Of a stretch of DNA of 37,146 nt, positions 27,909-37,146 are shown one piece after another. The position numbers and the translations under genes are program-made. The stretch is from an uncultured SAR324 cluster bacterium (GTDB lineage: Bacteria > SAR324 > NAC60-12). The stretch spans positions 1-37,146 of the forward strand of contig CACFAY010000011.1 of the NCBI GenBank assembly GCA_902564345.1, written 5' to 3'. Under the pieces are notes generated by a model. It was not told where the DNA came from. It saw only the letters and a list, made by a program, of their open reading frames with translations, and ran no database searches. The first letter of the stretch is position 1, and every line of letters starts with the position of its first letter.

Positions 27909-28376
27909 TTACCACCAAGGCCTTGACCATTCAAAAACTTTTGCCCATAGCGGTTCCTCCTGTTCAAGATTGTGAAGTGCAGCCTCAACGCTTATAACTT
28001 CTCCAGATTGTCTTATTTTTACTGTTAAAAAATCGTTTACTTCTAGGATTGCTGCCAGCCTTTTTCTATTAGTAAGATTTTGTACTCCTCGAGTTACAAC
28101 AGAACCATTATCCACTGGATATCGATAGACATTGTCACAAATATGACATGATTTTGGAATATTACTATCAAACCAAATATTTGCAACCTCCTCCTGGAGC
28201 CAAGGGTGTATTTCACGTTCTACACTTGCCGTAAAAACATAACGAACAGCAGTTGTCTGATGATCTAACGTCTTTTCTTCTGCTAAAAGAAAATAAGGAA
28301 GAACAGCTAGGCAAATGACAAAAAAAATTAATGTTTTCTTAACTATTTTGACTAAATTTTGAGTCATTATATTCAA
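27909..28376 (-). CDS. Small exported protein of unknown function
   Basis: This 155-residue protein has a signal sequence (TLIFFVICLAVLPYFLLAEE). The mature part contains a CxxC pair (KSCHICDNVYRYPVDNGS), an R/N-rich centre (QNLTNRKRLAAILEV) and ends with Trp-rich WAKVFEWSRPWW. The CxxC could be a disulfide or metal site. Its ATG overlaps the stop of the upstream barrel-protein gene by 4 nt (28373-28376), so the two are translationally coupled and probably functionally linked. No family is recognised. Confidence 0.7.
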   Translation of the reverse strand: MNIMTQNLVKIVKKTLIFFVICLAVLPYFLLAEEKTLDHQTTAVRYVFTASVEREIHPWLQEEVANIWFDSNIPKSCHICDNVYRYPVDNGSVVTRGVQNLTNRKRLAAILEVNDFLTVKIRQSGEVISVEAALHNLEQEEPLWAKVFEWSRPWW

Positions 28377-30415
28377 AAAAATATACCAAATCCTAATAAT
28401 ATTCGTGTCAAATCTTTTGCTTTATCCCATCGGTCTGTAACTGCTGAACGCTGGTTTGGATTTTCTGGAATACTAGTTTCCTCATAGCCATCTTGGTAAA
28501 CGACATAAAACGATGGCTGAAGAGAGAATTGGAAGTAGTAATTCTCCTTTCCTTGCCAGCCACCGTCAAGTACTGCAAAAAGTCCATATCCAATTGTAGA
28601 ATGATTATATTCAGTTGCGATTGAATCATAAGTCTCAGAATCACCTGAAATAGTTGCTACAGCCGCAGTATCTTTACCTTGATATTTTAATGTTGCATAT
28701 CCAAGGCCAACACCTGCACCATAAAAAATTCCATCTGAAATCCCCCATAAAAGAGACTCATCAACAAACCATCTCAAGGTCGCAGAAAATAATGATCTGT
28801 TTATTTCCAAGGTGTTACCTGAGCCACTTGCAGCAATACTCTGCATTTCAGTACTTTCTTCTGTCAAGCGTAATGCTTTGAATGCACTATTTACCTGTGA
28901 GCCTGTCAGCTCCACCGAATAGTGTAACTGTAAATCATAGTCCAGATTGTAGTCATAAAATGTAACTATACCGTTAAGACCAGTAAACGACATCCCCAGT
29001 CCAAGGCCACGATATTCTGAAATTCTCCATTGTGATCCCTCCCTAGTTTTGTCTTCTTTTTCCTCTTCAGTCTTTATAATGCTTGCATAATTATCAATTT
29101 CTTCTGCAGATGTTTCTTCTTGCTTTTTAAATTTTGATAAGGAGAAATTTTTTAGTCCTTCTTTAATATTAACCAAAACTTTTTCTTTTTTCTTTGATCC
29201 TGCCGGATCCATGACAGAAACATTTGCAATTGGTCCTTTCAATCTTCTTTCAGCGTCATCCTGAAACCAGAATTTTTTTTGAGTGTAAACCAGAATATGG
29301 GTTGCTCCTTTAGGAAAAATTGTGTTTTCAGGGAATTTATACCTTAATTCTGGCCTTGCTTTACCTTCAGTTTTTACGTCAATTTCCTGATCCATTTGAG
29401 AGATTGTTGAAACCTGTATTTCTTTATCGGTCAAACCATCTTTAAATTTTTTTACTTCAATTTGAGCGAATGGTGGATGTTCTCCCAGACGTGTTTGCTC
29501 TCCCTTACCCCAAAAAAACAAAAAATGACTAAAATCTTCTTCAAACTTCGTACGTATTAATCTCAAGTTACCATTTATGAATCCGAGTGCAGAGGATTTT
29601 TTTTCTAGGATTAATCTCAAATTTTCAGTTTTTTTCTCTTCCTGCATTCCTTTTAGTTTAACGAACTTACCCTCACTCATTTGTCCTTCATTATTTCTTG
29701 TGAAGACAATTAAATGAGTTGCCTCTGGAGGTAAAAGAATATCAATTTCTTCAGTCAAAGCAGAGCCCCTCCATGGCGCCATAAATTGGACTCCCAGACT
29801 GCCAAGCCAAGAACGTTTTTCAATTACCATAACAGCCGGTTGAGTTCGTAGAACAGTATTCTGTCCTTCTCCCCAGTATACTGCATAGTGGGTAACGTCT
29901 CTTTCATCCCATGCTCGTGTTATTCGAATTTCTCCATGTACCCTGTTTCCCTCTTTTCCTGTTTGTTCAAAAATTATGTCCTGGGCTTTATTCTTTGGAA
30001 CACCTTTGTCAATCAACCTTAGACTATAAATCTCTGTTTCATTTCCAGATTCACTACGTGCATATAGTAAAAAATGAGTTGCACTTTGAGGAACACGTGT
30101 TTTATTGAACTGTAATCTGATTTTACTCCCAGGCCCTGCTAAAGGCAGTTTAGTAATTGGTCTAAACATTCCAAGTCGCTGATGAGGATTGTTCCCCCAA
30201 TAAATAACATAATCTTTGATTTTTGATGGATTTTTTTTTGGTACGGTAAAGATAAGGTCTCCCGTGAGTATTCCACCACGAGCATCATTATCAGTGAATA
30301 CTAGAGGTGGTTCTTTTTGAGCAAATAATGATCCATGAATAACCACACTAAATGTGAGAATTAGTACGATTTTTTTCTGGAAAGGAGGTAGCACTGATCC
30401 ATTTTTCCACCCCAT
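28373..30415 (-). CDS. Outer-membrane protein with three 'YWG...ATH' repeats and a C-terminal beta-barrel
   Basis: This 680-residue protein has a signal peptide up to about residue 32. Three domains of about 110-120 residues follow with the pattern D.VIYWG......L......P..ATH.LLY: DYVIYWGNNPHQRLG/ATHFLLYARSESGNE, HYAVYWGEGQNTVLR/ATHLIVFTRNNEGQ, and HFLFFWGKGEQTRLGEHPP/ATHILVYTQKKFW. A charged linker follows, rich in Lys/Glu. The last ~210 residues alternate aromatic and polar residues (LHYSVELTGSQ, YYFQFSLQPSFYVVY) and end ILLGFGIFF, with the terminal Phe of outer-membrane barrels. It lies 32 nt downstream of the giant protein gene, consistent with one operon. Confidence 0.75.
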   Translation of the reverse strand: MGWKNGSVLPPFQKKIVLILTFSVVIHGSLFAQKEPPLVFTDNDARGGILTGDLIFTVPKKNPSKIKDYVIYWGNNPHQRLGMFRPITKLPLAGPGSKIRLQFNKTRVPQSATHFLLYARSESGNETEIYSLRLIDKGVPKNKAQDIIFEQTGKEGNRVHGEIRITRAWDERDVTHYAVYWGEGQNTVLRTQPAVMVIEKRSWLGSLGVQFMAPWRGSALTEEIDILLPPEATHLIVFTRNNEGQMSEGKFVKLKGMQEEKKTENLRLILEKKSSALGFINGNLRLIRTKFEEDFSHFLFFWGKGEQTRLGEHPPFAQIEVKKFKDGLTDKEIQVSTISQMDQEIDVKTEGKARPELRYKFPENTIFPKGATHILVYTQKKFWFQDDAERRLKGPIANVSVMDPAGSKKKEKVLVNIKEGLKNFSLSKFKKQEETSAEEIDNYASIIKTEEEKEDKTREGSQWRISEYRGLGLGMSFTGLNGIVTFYDYNLDYDLQLHYSVELTGSQVNSAFKALRLTEESTEMQSIAASGSGNTLEINRSLFSATLRWFVDESLLWGISDGIFYGAGVGLGYATLKYQGKDTAAVATISGDSETYDSIATEYNHSTIGYGLFAVLDGGWQGKENYYFQFSLQPSFYVVYQDGYEETSIPENPNQRSAVTDRWDKAKDLTRILLGFGIFF

Positions 30416-30447: not shown

Positions 30448-30795
30448 TTAAATTGCGGGTGGTTCTGAATGTGACAGGCTGGTAGGAATGCCACTGACAC
30501 TAAGTCTTACCCAATATCCCTGGCCTTTTTCTACTGTGCTGAATGTAGTGTAGCCAAGTTCTTCCAATTCATCAGCAATAGATGATTTAGGGGAATATGC
30601 AAGCCATTTGCTATTCTCGTCATCCCATGTCCAAATTGAATGAACTCTATCATATGAACCCATATAATCATAAGTTTCAGAAGTTGAATCACTTTGTGGT
30701 GGAGCGCATGCTACGACTAGCATTATCATTCCAGCAGAAAAAATCATCAATTGCCATGAGGAAATTTTCTGTGATTTTGAAATGCTGATTAACAT
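30448..30795 (-). other. Lipoprotein-like module fused in frame to the giant protein
   Basis: An ATG (complement at 30793-30795) inside the giant frame opens a complete 115-residue lipoprotein. It has a basic start, a hydrophobic helix, the lipobox LVVAC (Cys30), an acidic/Ser-rich linker and a domain VHSIWTWDDENSKWLAYSP...VEKGQGYWVRL. That domain is a paralogue of the W-rich module in the giant protein. It directly follows the RFKQT tail without a linker or stop. It could be an independently translated gene inside the ORF or the product of a lost stop codon. Confidence 0.55.
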
Positions 30796-33700
30796 TGTTT
30801 GTTTGAATCTGAACATTAAGCTTGCAGATGACAACAGTAACATTGCCATCACTAAAGCAAAACCATTAAATTGTCCTATTTGATTTCCGGAGACAATGAA
30901 GTCATCTTCCATAAAGTTAAGTCCTGAGGAAGGTCCATTTCCTCCTGAGTTATCTATAAATCCCAAAGTATTGGAATCATCTTCTTTTGTTTTGTCAAAA
31001 TTTCCAGCCTGAGTTATTTCCACAACCGTGATCTCTTTAGATGTTCCAAGTAAATTCCATTCAGAAGTCATGCTGCTCAATTGGGGTAAAGCAGAATATC
31101 CTCCATAATCGGCAATTTCAAAATTTGTAGGATTTGCAGGAGAATTCAGTTCAATCCAGAATCCTTCCCCAGCTTCAATGTTAGAGCTTAATTCAGAATA
31201 TCCTTTTTCTATATATATAGTACTTTCTTCACCACTTGTATAAAACTGCCATGCGCCATTTCGTCTTACCCAAACAGTTTTATAATCCCTGAAAAAGCTT
31301 CCAAAACTTGCTGGTGCAATTGATGAATATGCAGGAAGTGCGACAAGATTGCGAGATCCGTTCAATGCAACTGAAGCGGGGGTACTGTTTACATTTAATG
31401 TTTGACTTAAGGAAGATGGCAAATCATCTCCAATTCGGTATTGAGCAGTCCCCTGAGACAAACTTACGGAAGTTATATTGTCATATTCATTTGAAACTAA
31501 GAGGGATGCGTCTGATGATGTAGACTGGACAAATACTGGTTTTCCTAAAGATGTGTCAACTCCAACCCAAGTTCCAGTCACTGAGTATTCTGATAAAACT
31601 CCTGTACGTTGAGAAGTCCTGATAGTAGACCTGCTTCTAGACTGAGTCCTTGAATTGTTAGATGTATTTAAAGGTATCGTGAGGGTTATTTTATCAGCTT
31701 CCTGACTTACAGTACCTCCGGCACCTACTTCAGGTAAAACGTATTTTTCATTAGTTGAAACAGTCGTTAATACGGGATACATCAGGCCCTCATTGTTCAT
31801 GCTAACAGTGCTAGTGATACTCTCATCAGGGGCAAATGTGGATGTAATTTCTCGATCACTATTTACTGTTATGGTCGAACCTGTTGCCGCCTCCAAAGTA
31901 CTATCAGATATACCAGAACCCTGTACCTGAACGGAAGTATTTGAGTTAGTTATTGTACTGGTTATGCTACGGCTTACTCCATCATCAGCTGTCGCTGCTG
32001 AAATAGTGCTTACCACCATTCCACTCTTAACTTGGAGATCCATATTCGTAGATGAACTGAAAGTAGATAATACTGGTAAGGAATTTACAGGCAAAGTTTC
32101 GTAACTGGTAGAAGATGTACCATCAGTACCAATACTCGCTCCAAGAGTTCCACCTGTAACAGCCATGTTGGCAGTCACTCCATTACTAGTACTTATGGAA
32201 ACTGATAGTCCTGAATCTGTGCTTAAGCTTGATGTGGTGGTTGCTGAAGCTTCATCCACGTTGGATGTTGTTCTTCCAGAACCTCCACTGAGAGTAATTT
32301 CAATAACTGCTGAACCATCTGGACTTATTAAACTGGTAACCTGGGAGCTTATACCCGTCGATTCATCAGTTGTAGCCGGCTGAGAAATTTCAGAAATTCC
32401 ACTATCACTAATTACTACTTCTGATCCTTTAGGTGCTTTAACATTTGGTCCTGCTCCAGAGGAATCAACACCAACTGTGACCTCACCAACTGAACTAATA
32501 TTTGTAGAGAGTTGTGATCCCGTAGAAAGCGTCTGTAAGATGCTGATTGAAGCATCATCGTTCATATTAAAATCTGCACCCAGAGGAACATTTACTTTAG
32601 ACTCAGTTCCATCTTCAGTTTTAACTGTGCTGTAACCAGTACCATCGGTTTTCATGTCAATATTAAGTTCCGTCTCCCCTGATACAAGCTTATGGGCTTG
32701 AGCAACTTCTGGATCTGTAGAAGTAACATTTTCAAGAGTACTACCCTCAGGATATTTTGGTACAATTGCGCCAGTAACATTTGCTACAGCATTAATTTCA
32801 ACGATTGGCATGACCGTAACGGAAGTAGATCCGTATGCTGCAATCAGGTCATCATCAACGACTTCGAGACTAAACAGAAGAATAGTAACTTCAGAAATAT
32901 CTGGAGCAGAGAAATATGATATACTTTCACTTTCCCTTTCAATTGTAATATCAGTTCGCTGGCCAACATAATTCCATTTATATGAAACGATACGTCCAGT
33001 TGGGTCAGGGTCATAAGAAGCCGAACCGTCAAGAATCACTCTTGTCTTTTCATTTATTTTCTGGTCTTCACCAATTTGTACTATTGGACTGAGACCTTTC
33101 TGCAGGTCATCGTTGATATTGGTAAAAGTATATTTAAAAGCATGCAACCTGTTTGCTGAAGTGGAAGCGTAATTAGTGTCATCTGACTCCGTATAACCAA
33201 TAATTCGTACACTTACATCACCATCGACAACCGAATCATCCTCACCGGTAATGGTTACTTCCTGACTGCGGTTCCAATTAGCTGGAGTGAAAGTTAAAGA
33301 ATATTGATCAAGTGTTGCTTCCGTTAAGTCAGAGCTACTTAATACCACCTGTACATCACTTGATGGTCTGCTAAGGAGTTTAACTTCCATATTAGCAGTT
33401 TTTCGTTCACCTTCTGCCTCTGAAAGTAACCAGTTTGCACTTGTAACATATCTGTAAACACCATGAATATTATAGCCATAGGCACCTGTTTCTATAAATC
33501 CTATGCAGTTCTGAAGACATTCAACTCCTCCAGATGTACTAATTGAACCAATTGTATCTGTTGATGTAGTAAGTGTTATGTTCGAAACAGTACTTTCATC
33601 AGTCATACTAAGATCAGGTTCTCCATCAATTTCAATTATAGCAATCTCATTATTATTGTCCGATGTTATTAGAGTATCATCAAGCATCATCACGGCATCT

Positions 33701-36700
33701 GCGCTAAATATAGATGTTTGATTACTGGCGAATTTAATGCTTCCTCCTGCACTTTGCAGCAAGCCATTACTCATAATTAAAGCACTTTTCAATATTAAAT
33801 CAGCTTCTCCTGTTGAAATTCCCTCAGTGCTTTCATCAATTATTAAGCTTTCCTCCACTGTGAGATCGCTTTCTGCGCTTCCCAGAGTAAGGATAAATCC
33901 ATTTAAATCAAGCAATGCTATATTTAAAGGTTGATCGCTAGTCAAAGTTGTATCTTTTCCTAATTTCAAATTTGTTTGATAAAATACATAGGTTCCACCT
34001 AATTTGAAAAGAGAACTCCCAGTAACCCAAGTACTACCAGTGAAATCTATTGTGCCTGTTCCAGTCAACTCACCGCCACCAAGAAAGGAAAGTGTACCAC
34101 CAGTAGATGTAACTCCACCAGCACTAATATTCAGAGTAGAAAGCATTGTTATATCTGCATCTCCTGTAACTATAAACTCGTTTGGATTATCCACAATTAC
34201 AGCAGAAGAAATTTGCAGGTCTGTATTTGAATCAGCAAGGGTAAGTGTAAAGTCATTGAGTTCCAACTTATCAAATTCAATAGCTGTTTCACTAGCTATT
34301 GTGGTGTTATCATTCAGACTCAAAGTGGCAGATGAACTATCTAGGCTGCCACCAGTTTTTGTATAGTTACCACCAAGGCTAAAAATACTTTCTGCAAGAT
34401 TAAACTCAAATGATTCGGACTGAACTGTAGTATTTGTAAAACGAACTGTTCCCTCTGTTGACTCAAGCTTACCTTCGTTAAGGTTAACATTGCCTCCAAC
34501 ACTAAAGTCTGCATCCCCAGTATTGAGATGAACGTTCGCCTCCACTAATGAAAAATCCCCGCTGACTGCCAAATCGCTTGTGGCTGATCCCAGCTCAAGA
34601 GTATTATCTCCAAGATTAATCGATTTAACCGAAATTTCAGAATTACTGGTTATTTCCATGTCAGCTAATATTGTAGTTTCAGCGTCTAAGGTTTGCAGAA
34701 TCCCTCCCGTTTTAAAAATATCCCCACCTAACTCTAATTGAGCGTTATTTAGTCTCAGCAGACCTCCGGTCTGATTTATACCACCTGTAAATTTCAGGGA
34801 GGCATTATCTGAGATAATTCCACCATCGTCCACACTTAAAAGTCCTTTTAGATTTAAATCTGCTGAATTTGCAAAAATTTGTTCATCTGCTTGATCAAAG
34901 TTAATTGGCCCTCCGATTGTAAGCCCAGTTGTTTTAGAACCAAGAGTTAGAGTATTGTCATTCAACGCAATACCTAGTAGATACGATAAAGTATCGCTGG
35001 TTAACGTAAGGTTATCTGTAAGTTCCAAAATCGTTCCGTTTTCTGTGGAGGTCAAAGTACCACCAGATTTAAAATAATCGCCACCAAGTTTAAGAAAACT
35101 TGAAGTAACGTCCAGTTCACCTCCGGATTGGTTACCTCCTTTTTCAAGGGAAACAAATCCTCCTGTTGATGAGATTGCGCCATCTTCTATGTTAAGAATT
35201 TCCTCAAGAGTAATATCTGCCAAGCCTGAACTTAAATGTTCATTTGAATTGTTGAAGGTCATGTTGTCGGACACCGTCACATCACTATCTGCTGATCCCA
35301 GAGCAAGAATATGATCATTCAATATAAGTGTTTTAATCTCGATCTCTGTGTCGCTTGTATAAGTGGTATCGTCAGTCAGGTTCCATACCATATTTTCAAG
35401 ATTCATTGAGCCTCCTGCTTTTGATAAGGTCCCCTGTGTGTACCAGTGATTATCTTTTAACTCCAGTATTTTCCCTGCAGTCACTTGTATCTCGCTGTTA
35501 TTCCACCTGCCAATTGAAGATTTAATTTTAGTATCCTCTTGTGCATCAATTAAATTGCTTTCTTTGAAGTCAAAACTCCCACTGATTTGAGAATTTGATG
35601 AATCTAAGACCAGCTGACTATCATTTTCAAAAGTTAGTGTCCCGCCAAATAAGAGTTCTCCTTCTTCTCCACTTACTGTCATGGATTTTTGCTGAGGAAC
35701 TGAAATTGAGTTGGATATGTTGAGTAGAGTGTTGTCAGCCAACTGAAGATTTGAACTACCCTCGTGATCAAGATTTTCAACTAAGATTGTTGATGAATCG
35801 TGTATAATTTGGTCTCCAGAACATACAGAATTTTGATTCTGGGTTATTTGCAGTACTGCAGTAAGCACGTTTTGATCAATGTGGAGATGAGAAATTGATG
35901 TTGCATTATCTGCTAGCTTAAGTATTCCTCCATTCTGGTTCAGACTGATTGAATTATTTTCCAGACTTGAAAAATAACCACCGCCCTGCAGAGCAAGTTC
36001 AAGGTTGTTGATCTCAAGCTTATTTTCACCTTTGTAGGTAAGAATTCTTTCAGGAGCAATATATATCACTGAATTTGCAAGGTGACTAATATCTCCATCA
36101 ATTGTAGAATTATCTAAGACACACATTGTACCACCCATCAAATTTATATTTGCAGTAAGGTGACCTTTGAAATCCATTGTACCAGTCAAATTAAATGTGA
36201 GCCCACCAACAACTTCGAATATTGCGCTGTCTGTCATAGCAATTTGATTTTTAAAAGACAGTTCAATTTCTTCCTGCACCTTTGCAGTTATATTATTTAG
36301 TGTTAGTAAGGCATCTTGATTGTCCTGTAGAAGCTCAGTAATAAATACTAGACCTCTACTTCCTTCAGTTGAAAGAGTTGCTGCCGAGCTAACTATTAGA
36401 TTTTCAATATTAAATACGTACTGTTCGCTGTCAAAAATAAGTTTTAAGTCAGCACCAAGATTCAGGTTTGTAACTTTTGCTCCAGCACTTTTAACTTGTA
36501 TTCCTTTTCCTGATGAGCTGTCTGCTTGCACCATTACAAGCGCAACTGTAATGTCATCAGCAAAAATAATTGCTCCTTCAGAATTACTTAGGAGAACAGC
36601 GTTGGAATTCAGCATAGTTCCTTTGCCGAGAAAAGAAAGCTGGTACGAATTGATATCGATGACATCACCTAAATATGTCAAAGTCATTTCTGAGGCAACA

Positions 36701-37146
36701 TCAATATTAGAATCACCTGAAATTTTGATGTTTGAACCAATATTTGTATTATAATCAATATCGAGTAGGCCTCCTGATGCTAGTTCAAGTGTTCCATCAA
36801 TCAAGCTGTGATATTGAATTTGAGAGCTTACATTTGGTGGACTAAACTTAATAGTACCTCCAACTTTCAGGGTATCAGAAAGGCTTAAGGATCCTCCGTC
36901 AGTTCCTTTAATTTCAAGTTCTAAGTCAGATGGAACTTCAAAAGACTGTGTTACACTTAAAGTCTTACTACTGTCTAAATCCATTCTGGCATTTTTGCTG
37001 AGCACGATCTCTGTTGCAATCGTAGTATCCTGATCTAAATCAATCAATCCATCATTGAATATCAATTTCCCGCCACTAATAATATTATTCTCAGCATTCA
37101 GTTTCAGAACTCCTGATAGAGTAATGTTGTCATTTATATCAATAGT
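30448..37146 (-). CDS. Giant secreted repeat protein with Calx-beta-like, PKD and sorting-type tail (5'-partial)
   Basis: The track starts this ORF at a TTG (37065), but the frame is open for the remaining 27 codons to the window edge, so the N-terminus is missing and the protein exceeds 2230 residues. Its first ~1100 residues are beta-helix-like repeats with a 118-residue period (TLTLGSAESDL..., GGNYTKTGGSL). Then come a Calx-beta-like domain (DVQVVLSSSDLTEATLDQYS, TITGEDD), a PKD domain (DGSASYDPDPTGRIVSYKW), a long Ser/Thr-rich region, and a W-rich module (VWVRRNGAWQFY..GEGFWIEL). A tail (FNGFALVMAMLLLSSASLMFRFKQ) looks like a membrane anchor or sorting signal, yet the frame continues for 116 residues as a lipoprotein-like domain. 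It is probably a surface adhesin or matrix protein. Confidence 0.8.
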   Translation of the reverse strand, partial: TIDINDNITLSGVLKLNAENNIISGGKLIFNDGLIDLDQDTTIATEIVLSKNARMDLDSSKTLSVTQSFEVPSDLELEIKGTDGGSLSLSDTLKVGGTIKFSPPNVSSQIQYHSLIDGTLELASGGLLDIDYNTNIGSNIKISGDSNIDVASEMTLTYLGDVIDINSYQLSFLGKGTMLNSNAVLLSNSEGAIIFADDITVALVMVQADSSSGKGIQVKSAGAKVTNLNLGADLKLIFDSEQYVFNIENLIVSSAATLSTEGSRGLVFITELLQDNQDALLTLNNITAKVQEEIELSFKNQIAMTDSAIFEVVGGLTFNLTGTMDFKGHLTANINLMGGTMCVLDNSTIDGDISHLANSVIYIAPERILTYKGENKLEINNLELALQGGGYFSSLENNSISLNQNGGILKLADNATSISHLHIDQNVLTAVLQITQNQNSVCSGDQIIHDSSTILVENLDHEGSSNLQLADNTLLNISNSISVPQQKSMTVSGEEGELLFGGTLTFENDSQLVLDSSNSQISGSFDFKESNLIDAQEDTKIKSSIGRWNNSEIQVTAGKILELKDNHWYTQGTLSKAGGSMNLENMVWNLTDDTTYTSDTEIEIKTLILNDHILALGSADSDVTVSDNMTFNNSNEHLSSGLADITLEEILNIEDGAISSTGGFVSLEKGGNQSGGELDVTSSFLKLGGDYFKSGGTLTSTENGTILELTDNLTLTSDTLSYLLGIALNDNTLTLGSKTTGLTIGGPINFDQADEQIFANSADLNLKGLLSVDDGGIISDNASLKFTGGINQTGGLLRLNNAQLELGGDIFKTGGILQTLDAETTILADMEITSNSEISVKSINLGDNTLELGSATSDLAVSGDFSLVEANVHLNTGDADFSVGGNVNLNEGKLESTEGTVRFTNTTVQSESFEFNLAESIFSLGGNYTKTGGSLDSSSATLSLNDNTTIASETAIEFDKLELNDFTLTLADSNTDLQISSAVIVDNPNEFIVTGDADITMLSTLNISAGGVTSTGGTLSFLGGGELTGTGTIDFTGSTWVTGSSLFKLGGTYVFYQTNLKLGKDTTLTSDQPLNIALLDLNGFILTLGSAESDLTVEESLIIDESTEGISTGEADLILKSALIMSNGLLQSAGGSIKFASNQTSIFSADAVMMLDDTLITSDNNNEIAIIEIDGEPDLSMTDESTVSNITLTTSTDTIGSISTSGGVECLQNCIGFIETGAYGYNIHGVYRYVTSANWLLSEAEGERKTANMEVKLLSRPSSDVQVVLSSSDLTEATLDQYSLTFTPANWNRSQEVTITGEDDSVVDGDVSVRIIGYTESDDTNYASTSANRLHAFKYTFTNINDDLQKGLSPIVQIGEDQKINEKTRVILDGSASYDPDPTGRIVSYKWNYVGQRTDITIERESESISYFSAPDISEVTILLFSLEVVDDDLIAAYGSTSVTVMPIVEINAVANVTGAIVPKYPEGSTLENVTSTDPEVAQAHKLVSGETELNIDMKTDGTGYSTVKTEDGTESKVNVPLGADFNMNDDASISILQTLSTGSQLSTNISSVGEVTVGVDSSGAGPNVKAPKGSEVVISDSGISEISQPATTDESTGISSQVTSLISPDGSAVIEITLSGGSGRTTSNVDEASATTTSSLSTDSGLSVSISTSNGVTANMAVTGGTLGASIGTDGTSSTSYETLPVNSLPVLSTFSSSTNMDLQVKSGMVVSTISAATADDGVSRSITSTITNSNTSVQVQGSGISDSTLEAATGSTITVNSDREITSTFAPDESITSTVSMNNEGLMYPVLTTVSTNEKYVLPEVGAGGTVSQEADKITLTIPLNTSNNSRTQSRSRSTIRTSQRTGVLSEYSVTGTWVGVDTSLGKPVFVQSTSSDASLLVSNEYDNITSVSLSQGTAQYRIGDDLPSSLSQTLNVNSTPASVALNGSRNLVALPAYSSIAPASFGSFFRDYKTVWVRRNGAWQFYTSGEESTIYIEKGYSELSSNIEAGEGFWIELNSPANPTNFEIADYGGYSALPQLSSMTSEWNLLGTSKEITVVEITQAGNFDKTKEDDSNTLGFIDNSGGNGPSSGLNFMEDDFIVSGNQIGQFNGFALVMAMLLLSSASLMFRFKQTMLISISKSQKISSWQLMIFSAGMIMLVVACAPPQSDSTSETYDYMGSYDRVHSIWTWDDENSKWLAYSPKSSIADELEELGYTTFSTVEKGQGYWVRLSVSGIPTSLSHSEPPAI
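33860..35310 (-). repeat. Five clear 118-aa (354-nt) tandem repeats in the giant gene
   Basis: The motif ...LTLGSAxSDLTV... recurs at about 35290, 34940, 34590, 34235 and 33880. The same nucleotide landmark in copies 1, 3 and 5 lies exactly 708 nt apart each time, i.e. two 354-nt units. Each unit has the order LxLGSAxSDLxV, TGxADxxLxxxLN, STGGxxxF, GG and LGGxxxKTGG. Protein identity between units is moderate, so they are old rather than freshly expanded. Confidence 0.7.

Follow-up and report, generated by a model that had tools for sequence, protein, structure and literature searches.

A conserved internal lipobox cassette interrupts the C-terminal module of giant exported proteins in a SAR324 family

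The window analysed here is one whole contig of 37146 bases from a 1.86-Mb, 52% complete genome, whose nearest named relatives are for the most part SAR324 cluster genomes. A giant open frame of 2232 codons (37146-30448) lies on the minus strand of the contig and continues beyond the contig end. The body of the exported protein that it encodes (31366..37146, minus strand), cut off at the contig end, is repetitive and beta-helix-like by eye, and contains a PKD domain, the sole Pfam domain recognised in the window's part of the giant protein. Complete relatives in genomes G004 (9484 codons; L069-L070, G004:C3:10001-50000, minus strand) and G023 (8385 codons; L072-L073, G023:C18, minus strand) each carry an N-terminal signal peptide. 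Their long repetitive stretches look beta-helical by eye, and a 3666-residue stretch of the 9484-codon giant gave no Pfam match. Both frames have very few cysteines and are unusually large for bacterial proteins. Just downstream of the giant gene another gene (28373..30415, minus strand) encodes a 680-aa protein that has a signal peptide, domains resembling beta-sandwiches and a beta-rich C-terminal part ending in LLGFGIFF (...LTRILLGFGIFF). A gene family for a protein of 650-730 residues occupies this position in the window's genus, G023 and G021. The 680-aa protein matched no family, and structure prediction for 10 sequences was of low confidence (mean pLDDT 47), worst in the C-terminal part. 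By eye, the C-terminal end resembles the signal of outer-membrane beta-barrels, and the protein is a possible outer-membrane partner of the giant.

All tail elements of interest lie on the minus strand in the last 305 residues of the giant frame (31365-30451), whose translation reads ...SGGNGPSSG...GFALVMAMLLLSSASLMF-RFKQTMLISISKSQKISSW-QLMIFSAGMIMLVVA-C-APPQSDSTSETYDYMGSYDRVHSIWTWDDENSKWLAYSPK...GQGYWVRL...PPAI-stop. Module 1 of the C-terminal domain (NLVALPAY...VWVRRNGAWQFY...GEGFWIEL; 31096..31365) is uninterrupted and homologous both to module 2 and to uninterrupted paralogue tails. The first fifth of module 2 (EWNLLGTSKEITVVEITQAGN; EWNLLGTSKEITVVEITQ; 31000..31062) matches positions 2-19 of a profile built from continuous copies of module 2, and the remaining four fifths (VHSIWTWDDENSKWLAYSPK...GQGYWVRL...PPAI; 30451..30645) match positions 22-81 and extend to the C-terminus. 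Between these two parts stands a cassette of about 120 residues, composed of a linker, a first transmembrane helix (TM1), a basic loop, a second helix (TM2) with a terminal lipobox, a lipidatable Cys and a flexible tether. The linker (30862..30999) contains Gly, Ser and Pro and, in the alignment of copies, a conserved PxxG before TM1 in which P is invariant and G nearly so. TM1 (FALVMAMLLLSSASLMF; 30811..30861) has a mean hydropathy of 2.2 and an equivalent in all 24 copies compared below. It is followed by the basic loop (RFKQTMLISISKSQKISSW; 30754..30810), predicted to be cytoplasmic, and by TM2 (30706..30753), which ends in LVVA-Cys. The lipobox LVVAC, pointed out in an earlier, sequence-only reading of this DNA, is indeed present at 30720-30706 (Cys codon 30708-30706). 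The flexible tether after it (APPQSDSTSETYDYMGSYDR; 30646..30705) is Ser/Thr-rich, and poly-Gly in several copies of other genera. The predicted lipidated product, made up of the Cys, the tether and the C-terminal half of module 2, would have 86 residues.

We compared 24 copies of the interrupted tail from one SAR324 family, 15 from the window's genus and nine from four other genera (G023, G018, G021 and G026). Across these five genera all copies keep one open frame, two hydrophobic helices and a net positive loop, at identities down to about 23%. A protein search of relatives recovered the tail from 13 other genomes of the same genus. The frame was unbroken and the match either full or partial but large in all of them except G003, which has only a 27-residue fragment at a contig end. 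Given that the architecture and the Cys are kept in 24 copies of five genera, the arrangement is not due to chance. In a set of 383 genomes, 52 of them from the phylum, interrupted copies were found in this family only.

The sequence-only reading had proposed that a stop codon was lost between two duplicated neighbour genes, or that a frame-internal start, the ATG of MLISIS within the basic loop (30795-30793), makes a second lipoprotein. We found no stop codon at the junction in any of the 24 copies, including 14 further copies from the same genus (62-98% identity) and the nine from other genera. The in-frame ATG is common to this genome and its nearest relative, G002, only, and six of the 24 copies have no ATG, GTG or TTG anywhere in the loop. 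A lost stop and an internal start therefore both fail as explanations of the family. A lost stop, an assembly error or an internal start producing a separate lipoprotein gene can draw on the in-frame ATG in this genome's loop, but the frame is open in all other copies, from independent assemblies, and the start codon is not conserved; we give these explanations practically no weight.

The Cys at the end of TM2 is present in 24/24 copies, preceded by Ala in 23 and by Ser in one, and followed by Ala or Gly in all. Among distant copies, TM2 retains only two strongly conserved positions, the Cys and the -1 residue, and most of its other positions vary. The lipobox pattern of PROSITE PS00013 is fitted by 22 copies, and the other two have an unusual -2 residue (His, Trp). 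The lipobox is thus under selection and probably used. The sequence-only reading had counted a continuous fusion without lipobox conservation as evidence against itself; the fusion proved continuous and the lipobox conserved as well, a third case that it had not foreseen. Net charge is positive in the loop of every copy and, for the most part, neutral or negative in the flanks, so hydropathy and charge suggest a hairpin with the loop inside and both flanks outside, in the periplasm. Thus, what had been taken for an anchor followed by a new start is better described as a two-helix hairpin with a basic loop between its helices. Genomes of the family encode the enzymes of the lipoprotein pathway (LspA in 28/31, Lgt in 28/31 and LolA in 29/31, covering all eight genera), and Lgt and LspA are encoded in the window's own genome too. 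In G018, G021 and G026, poly-Gly comes right after the internal Cys, and about 19 N-terminal lipoprotein-like frames in these genomes have the same tether behind their Cys. These features argue strongly for lipidation and cleavage at the internal Cys, and the lipidated C-terminal piece suggested earlier is, with its conserved lipobox, likely.

It is conceivable that the hairpin serves instead as an uncut membrane anchor and that the Cys is otherwise used, for example in lipidation without cleavage or in a disulfide. The conserved hydrophobicity of the hairpin and the two copies that deviate at -2 are consistent with such a role, but the pattern of conservation is that of a lipobox, with Ala or Ser at -1 and a small residue after the Cys. 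The match between the poly-Gly tethers and the N-terminal lipoprotein-like frames and the presence of Lgt and LspA also speak against it. Moreover, the last 1000 residues of the G004 giant contain no Cys other than the internal one, which leaves it no partner nearby for an intrachain disulfide. We consider an uncut anchor improbable.

TM1 and the basic residues after it had also been likened to an exosortase-type C-terminal signal. A C-terminal sorting signal of the exosortase, rhombosortase or myxosortase type would show the same order of PxxG motif, helix and basic residues. However, TM1 is not terminal, with about 120 residues or more following in frame in every complete copy, and in the window's genus about 20 residues separate the PxxG from the helix. 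Exosortase and rhombosortase are well-known enzymes for such sites; no exosortase, and no rhombosortase over the cut-off, was found in the 31 family genomes, and the tail matched no NCBIfam model, sorting-signal models included, at E up to 5. A sorting signal of this kind is therefore very improbable.

The cassette shares with Lgt/LspA lipoproteins a basic stretch, a hydrophobic helix, a lipobox with Ala or Ser at -1, the Cys, a flexible Ser or poly-Gly tether and the enzymes. Among the marks of a lipoprotein, the lipobox with its invariant Cys, the positive residues before the helix and the enzymes are all in place, whereas the signal is internal in every copy, without a conserved internal start, rather than at the precursor's N-terminus. 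The proteins run to thousands of residues, and the signal sits 85-120 residues before their C-terminus, as the second helix of a hairpin that interrupts a domain. The cassette would act like a lipoprotein signal, yet one that is not N-terminal, and it is not a classical C-terminal sorting signal.

Uninterrupted paralogues in the family have the same two-module tail, in which module 2 is continuous (...GWNLLGTQNEMTIQALLEQNSQIKSIWYWNDNNWNVY...). In the window, its counterpart is broken after EWNLLGTSKEITVVEITQAGN by an insert (linker, two helices and tether; about 120 residues) and continues with VHSIWTWDDENSKWLAY. A pair profile made from uninterrupted copies matches the interrupted ones up to position 118-120 of 189 (window: 120) and picks up again at 120-123 in two G021 copies. 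In most copies of the genus, the likeness of the two modules draws the second match to the homologous part of module 1 (positions 12-76). With a module-2 profile, N-halves mapped to positions 1-19 (18/22) and C-halves to 21-87 (22/22), and shuffled controls were not comparably scored; this profile was built from three sequences, and the cut points of some N-halves were probably wrong. Therefore, module 2 starts before TM1, and the "lipoprotein domain" of the sequence-only reading is its remaining four fifths. The kinship of that part with the preceding module is real, and the open frame, hydrophobic pieces and lipobox of the proposed membrane tail and lipoprotein hold as well, but the lipoprotein is not complete, and comparison with uninterrupted paralogues reveals a single module divided by an insert where two duplicated neighbour genes had been proposed. 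In a tree built without the cassette columns, one change parts interrupted from uninterrupted copies (support 97/96). Since module 1 is an uninterrupted homologue and G285, a genome outside the phylum, has an uninterrupted pair-like match, a single insertion is the simpler direction. Most tails, interrupted and uninterrupted, have PP close to the last residue (EPPAI, KPPSFK, LPPN). This two-module C-terminus may serve the SAR324 family as a general domain for secretion or sorting.

Both halves of module 2 are as constrained as an intact module. Within the genus, dN/dS, estimated by simple counting over nine pairs that are not independent, was about 0.08 for the first fifth of module 2, 0.12 for its C-half and 0.11 for module 1. 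The hairpin drifts: its dN/dS is about 0.36, and that of its loop about 0.49. As both halves are constrained like the intact module, the two pieces most likely fold as one module, and we regard docking of the two halves as moderately well indicated by these comparisons. Structure prediction for 12 tail sequences was of low confidence (mean pLDDT 37), and a sequence search of the tail against solved structures returned nothing.

These results are best explained by a type II (LspA) signal inside the chain, yielding a lipidated C-terminal half-domain that is probably docked to the other half; we put the probability of this explanation as a whole at roughly 0.6. The cell would thus probably cut the giant at the cassette and fix its tail to a membrane by lipid. 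The giant would enter the Sec pathway via its N-terminal signal peptide, TM1 would stop transfer and TM2 restart it, leaving both flanks periplasmic, and TM2 would serve as a type II signal peptide inside module 2. Lgt would then add a diacylglyceryl group to Cys220 of the tail, as the conserved lipobox and the enzymes suggest, and LspA would cut before Cys220, releasing an 86-residue C-terminal lipoprotein with four fifths of module 2. The two pieces would most likely fold together as one module, the lipid-bearing piece holding the giant's C-terminus at a membrane. The residue after the Cys is Ala, not Asp; if the E. coli rule applies, LolA would preferentially deliver the lipoprotein to the outer membrane. 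The stricter proposal, that LspA cuts inside the domain and the docked halves give a giant surface protein a C-terminal lipid anchor by non-covalent domain complementation, has in our view slightly less than an even chance.

Several observations weigh against internal type II processing with docked halves. Both structure predictions, of low confidence, give docking no structural support, and the -2 residue is unusual (His, Trp) in two of the 24 copies. The main piece left by the cut would retain its two-helix hairpin in the inner membrane, a poor fit to outer-membrane anchoring unless a second cut occurred, possibly before TM1 and perhaps at the conserved PxxG region. The halves might also part after cutting and lipidation at the Cys, leaving the 86-residue lipoprotein alone and the giant held by its inner-membrane hairpin. 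The lipobox evidence is identical for this outcome, the tether and linker are long and variable, and no predicted structure shows docking, but an N-half of about 20 residues constrained like the rest of the module (dN/dS about 0.08) is hard to explain outside a fold, and uninterrupted paralogues have both halves as one continuous module. We therefore find separation of the halves unlikely, if less so than an uncut anchor.

In MYXO-CTERM proteins, the C-terminal region fixes a surface protein and an invariant Cys is predicted to be lipidated; these tripartite signals comprise a motif with the Cys, then a helix, then a basic end at the C-terminus (PMC11980579). The SAR324 tails resemble this myxosortase system in the proposed fixing of a surface protein by its C-terminal region and in a Cys predicted to be lipidated, but in the tails the helix precedes the Cys, the order of N-terminal lipoprotein signals, and a folded piece lies beyond the Cys. 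In adhesion-GPCR GAIN domains and mucin SEA domains, the chain cuts itself and the pieces stay associated. The tails are similar to these in that the chain would be cut within a domain and the two pieces are proposed to stay together, but the cut is predicted to be made by LspA, at a break that holds an inserted membrane hairpin. A search of titles and abstracts on internal or C-terminal lipoboxes, with most subscription journals outside its coverage, found no description of this arrangement. Lipoprotein signals are sought at protein N-termini, and an internal one would escape standard predictors. If the proposal is true, bacteria can anchor the C-terminus of very large exported proteins by lipid without a sortase, the general Lgt/LspA pathway acts mid-chain, and the tails represent a naturally evolved, testable fragment-complementation design.

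The cassette is carried on unlike cargo, namely PKD-bearing giants and, in G021, subtilase/FG-GAP proteins. The latter (L075 3913-13359 and L076 3526-12840) have two lipoboxes each, one N-terminal and one in the internal cassette; the need for a second lipid anchor in two proteins that already have an N-terminal lipobox is not obvious, a further point against internal type II processing. At L071 (G005:C4:638001-658000), in a five-contig assembly, the giant and downstream genes are split into several frames, through sequencing frame errors or because the copy has decayed. A record named Rhodospirillaceae bacterium ARS16 (L066, L067) contains two copies of SAR324 type that share 62-64% identity with the window, and is probably a misnamed or mixed bin.
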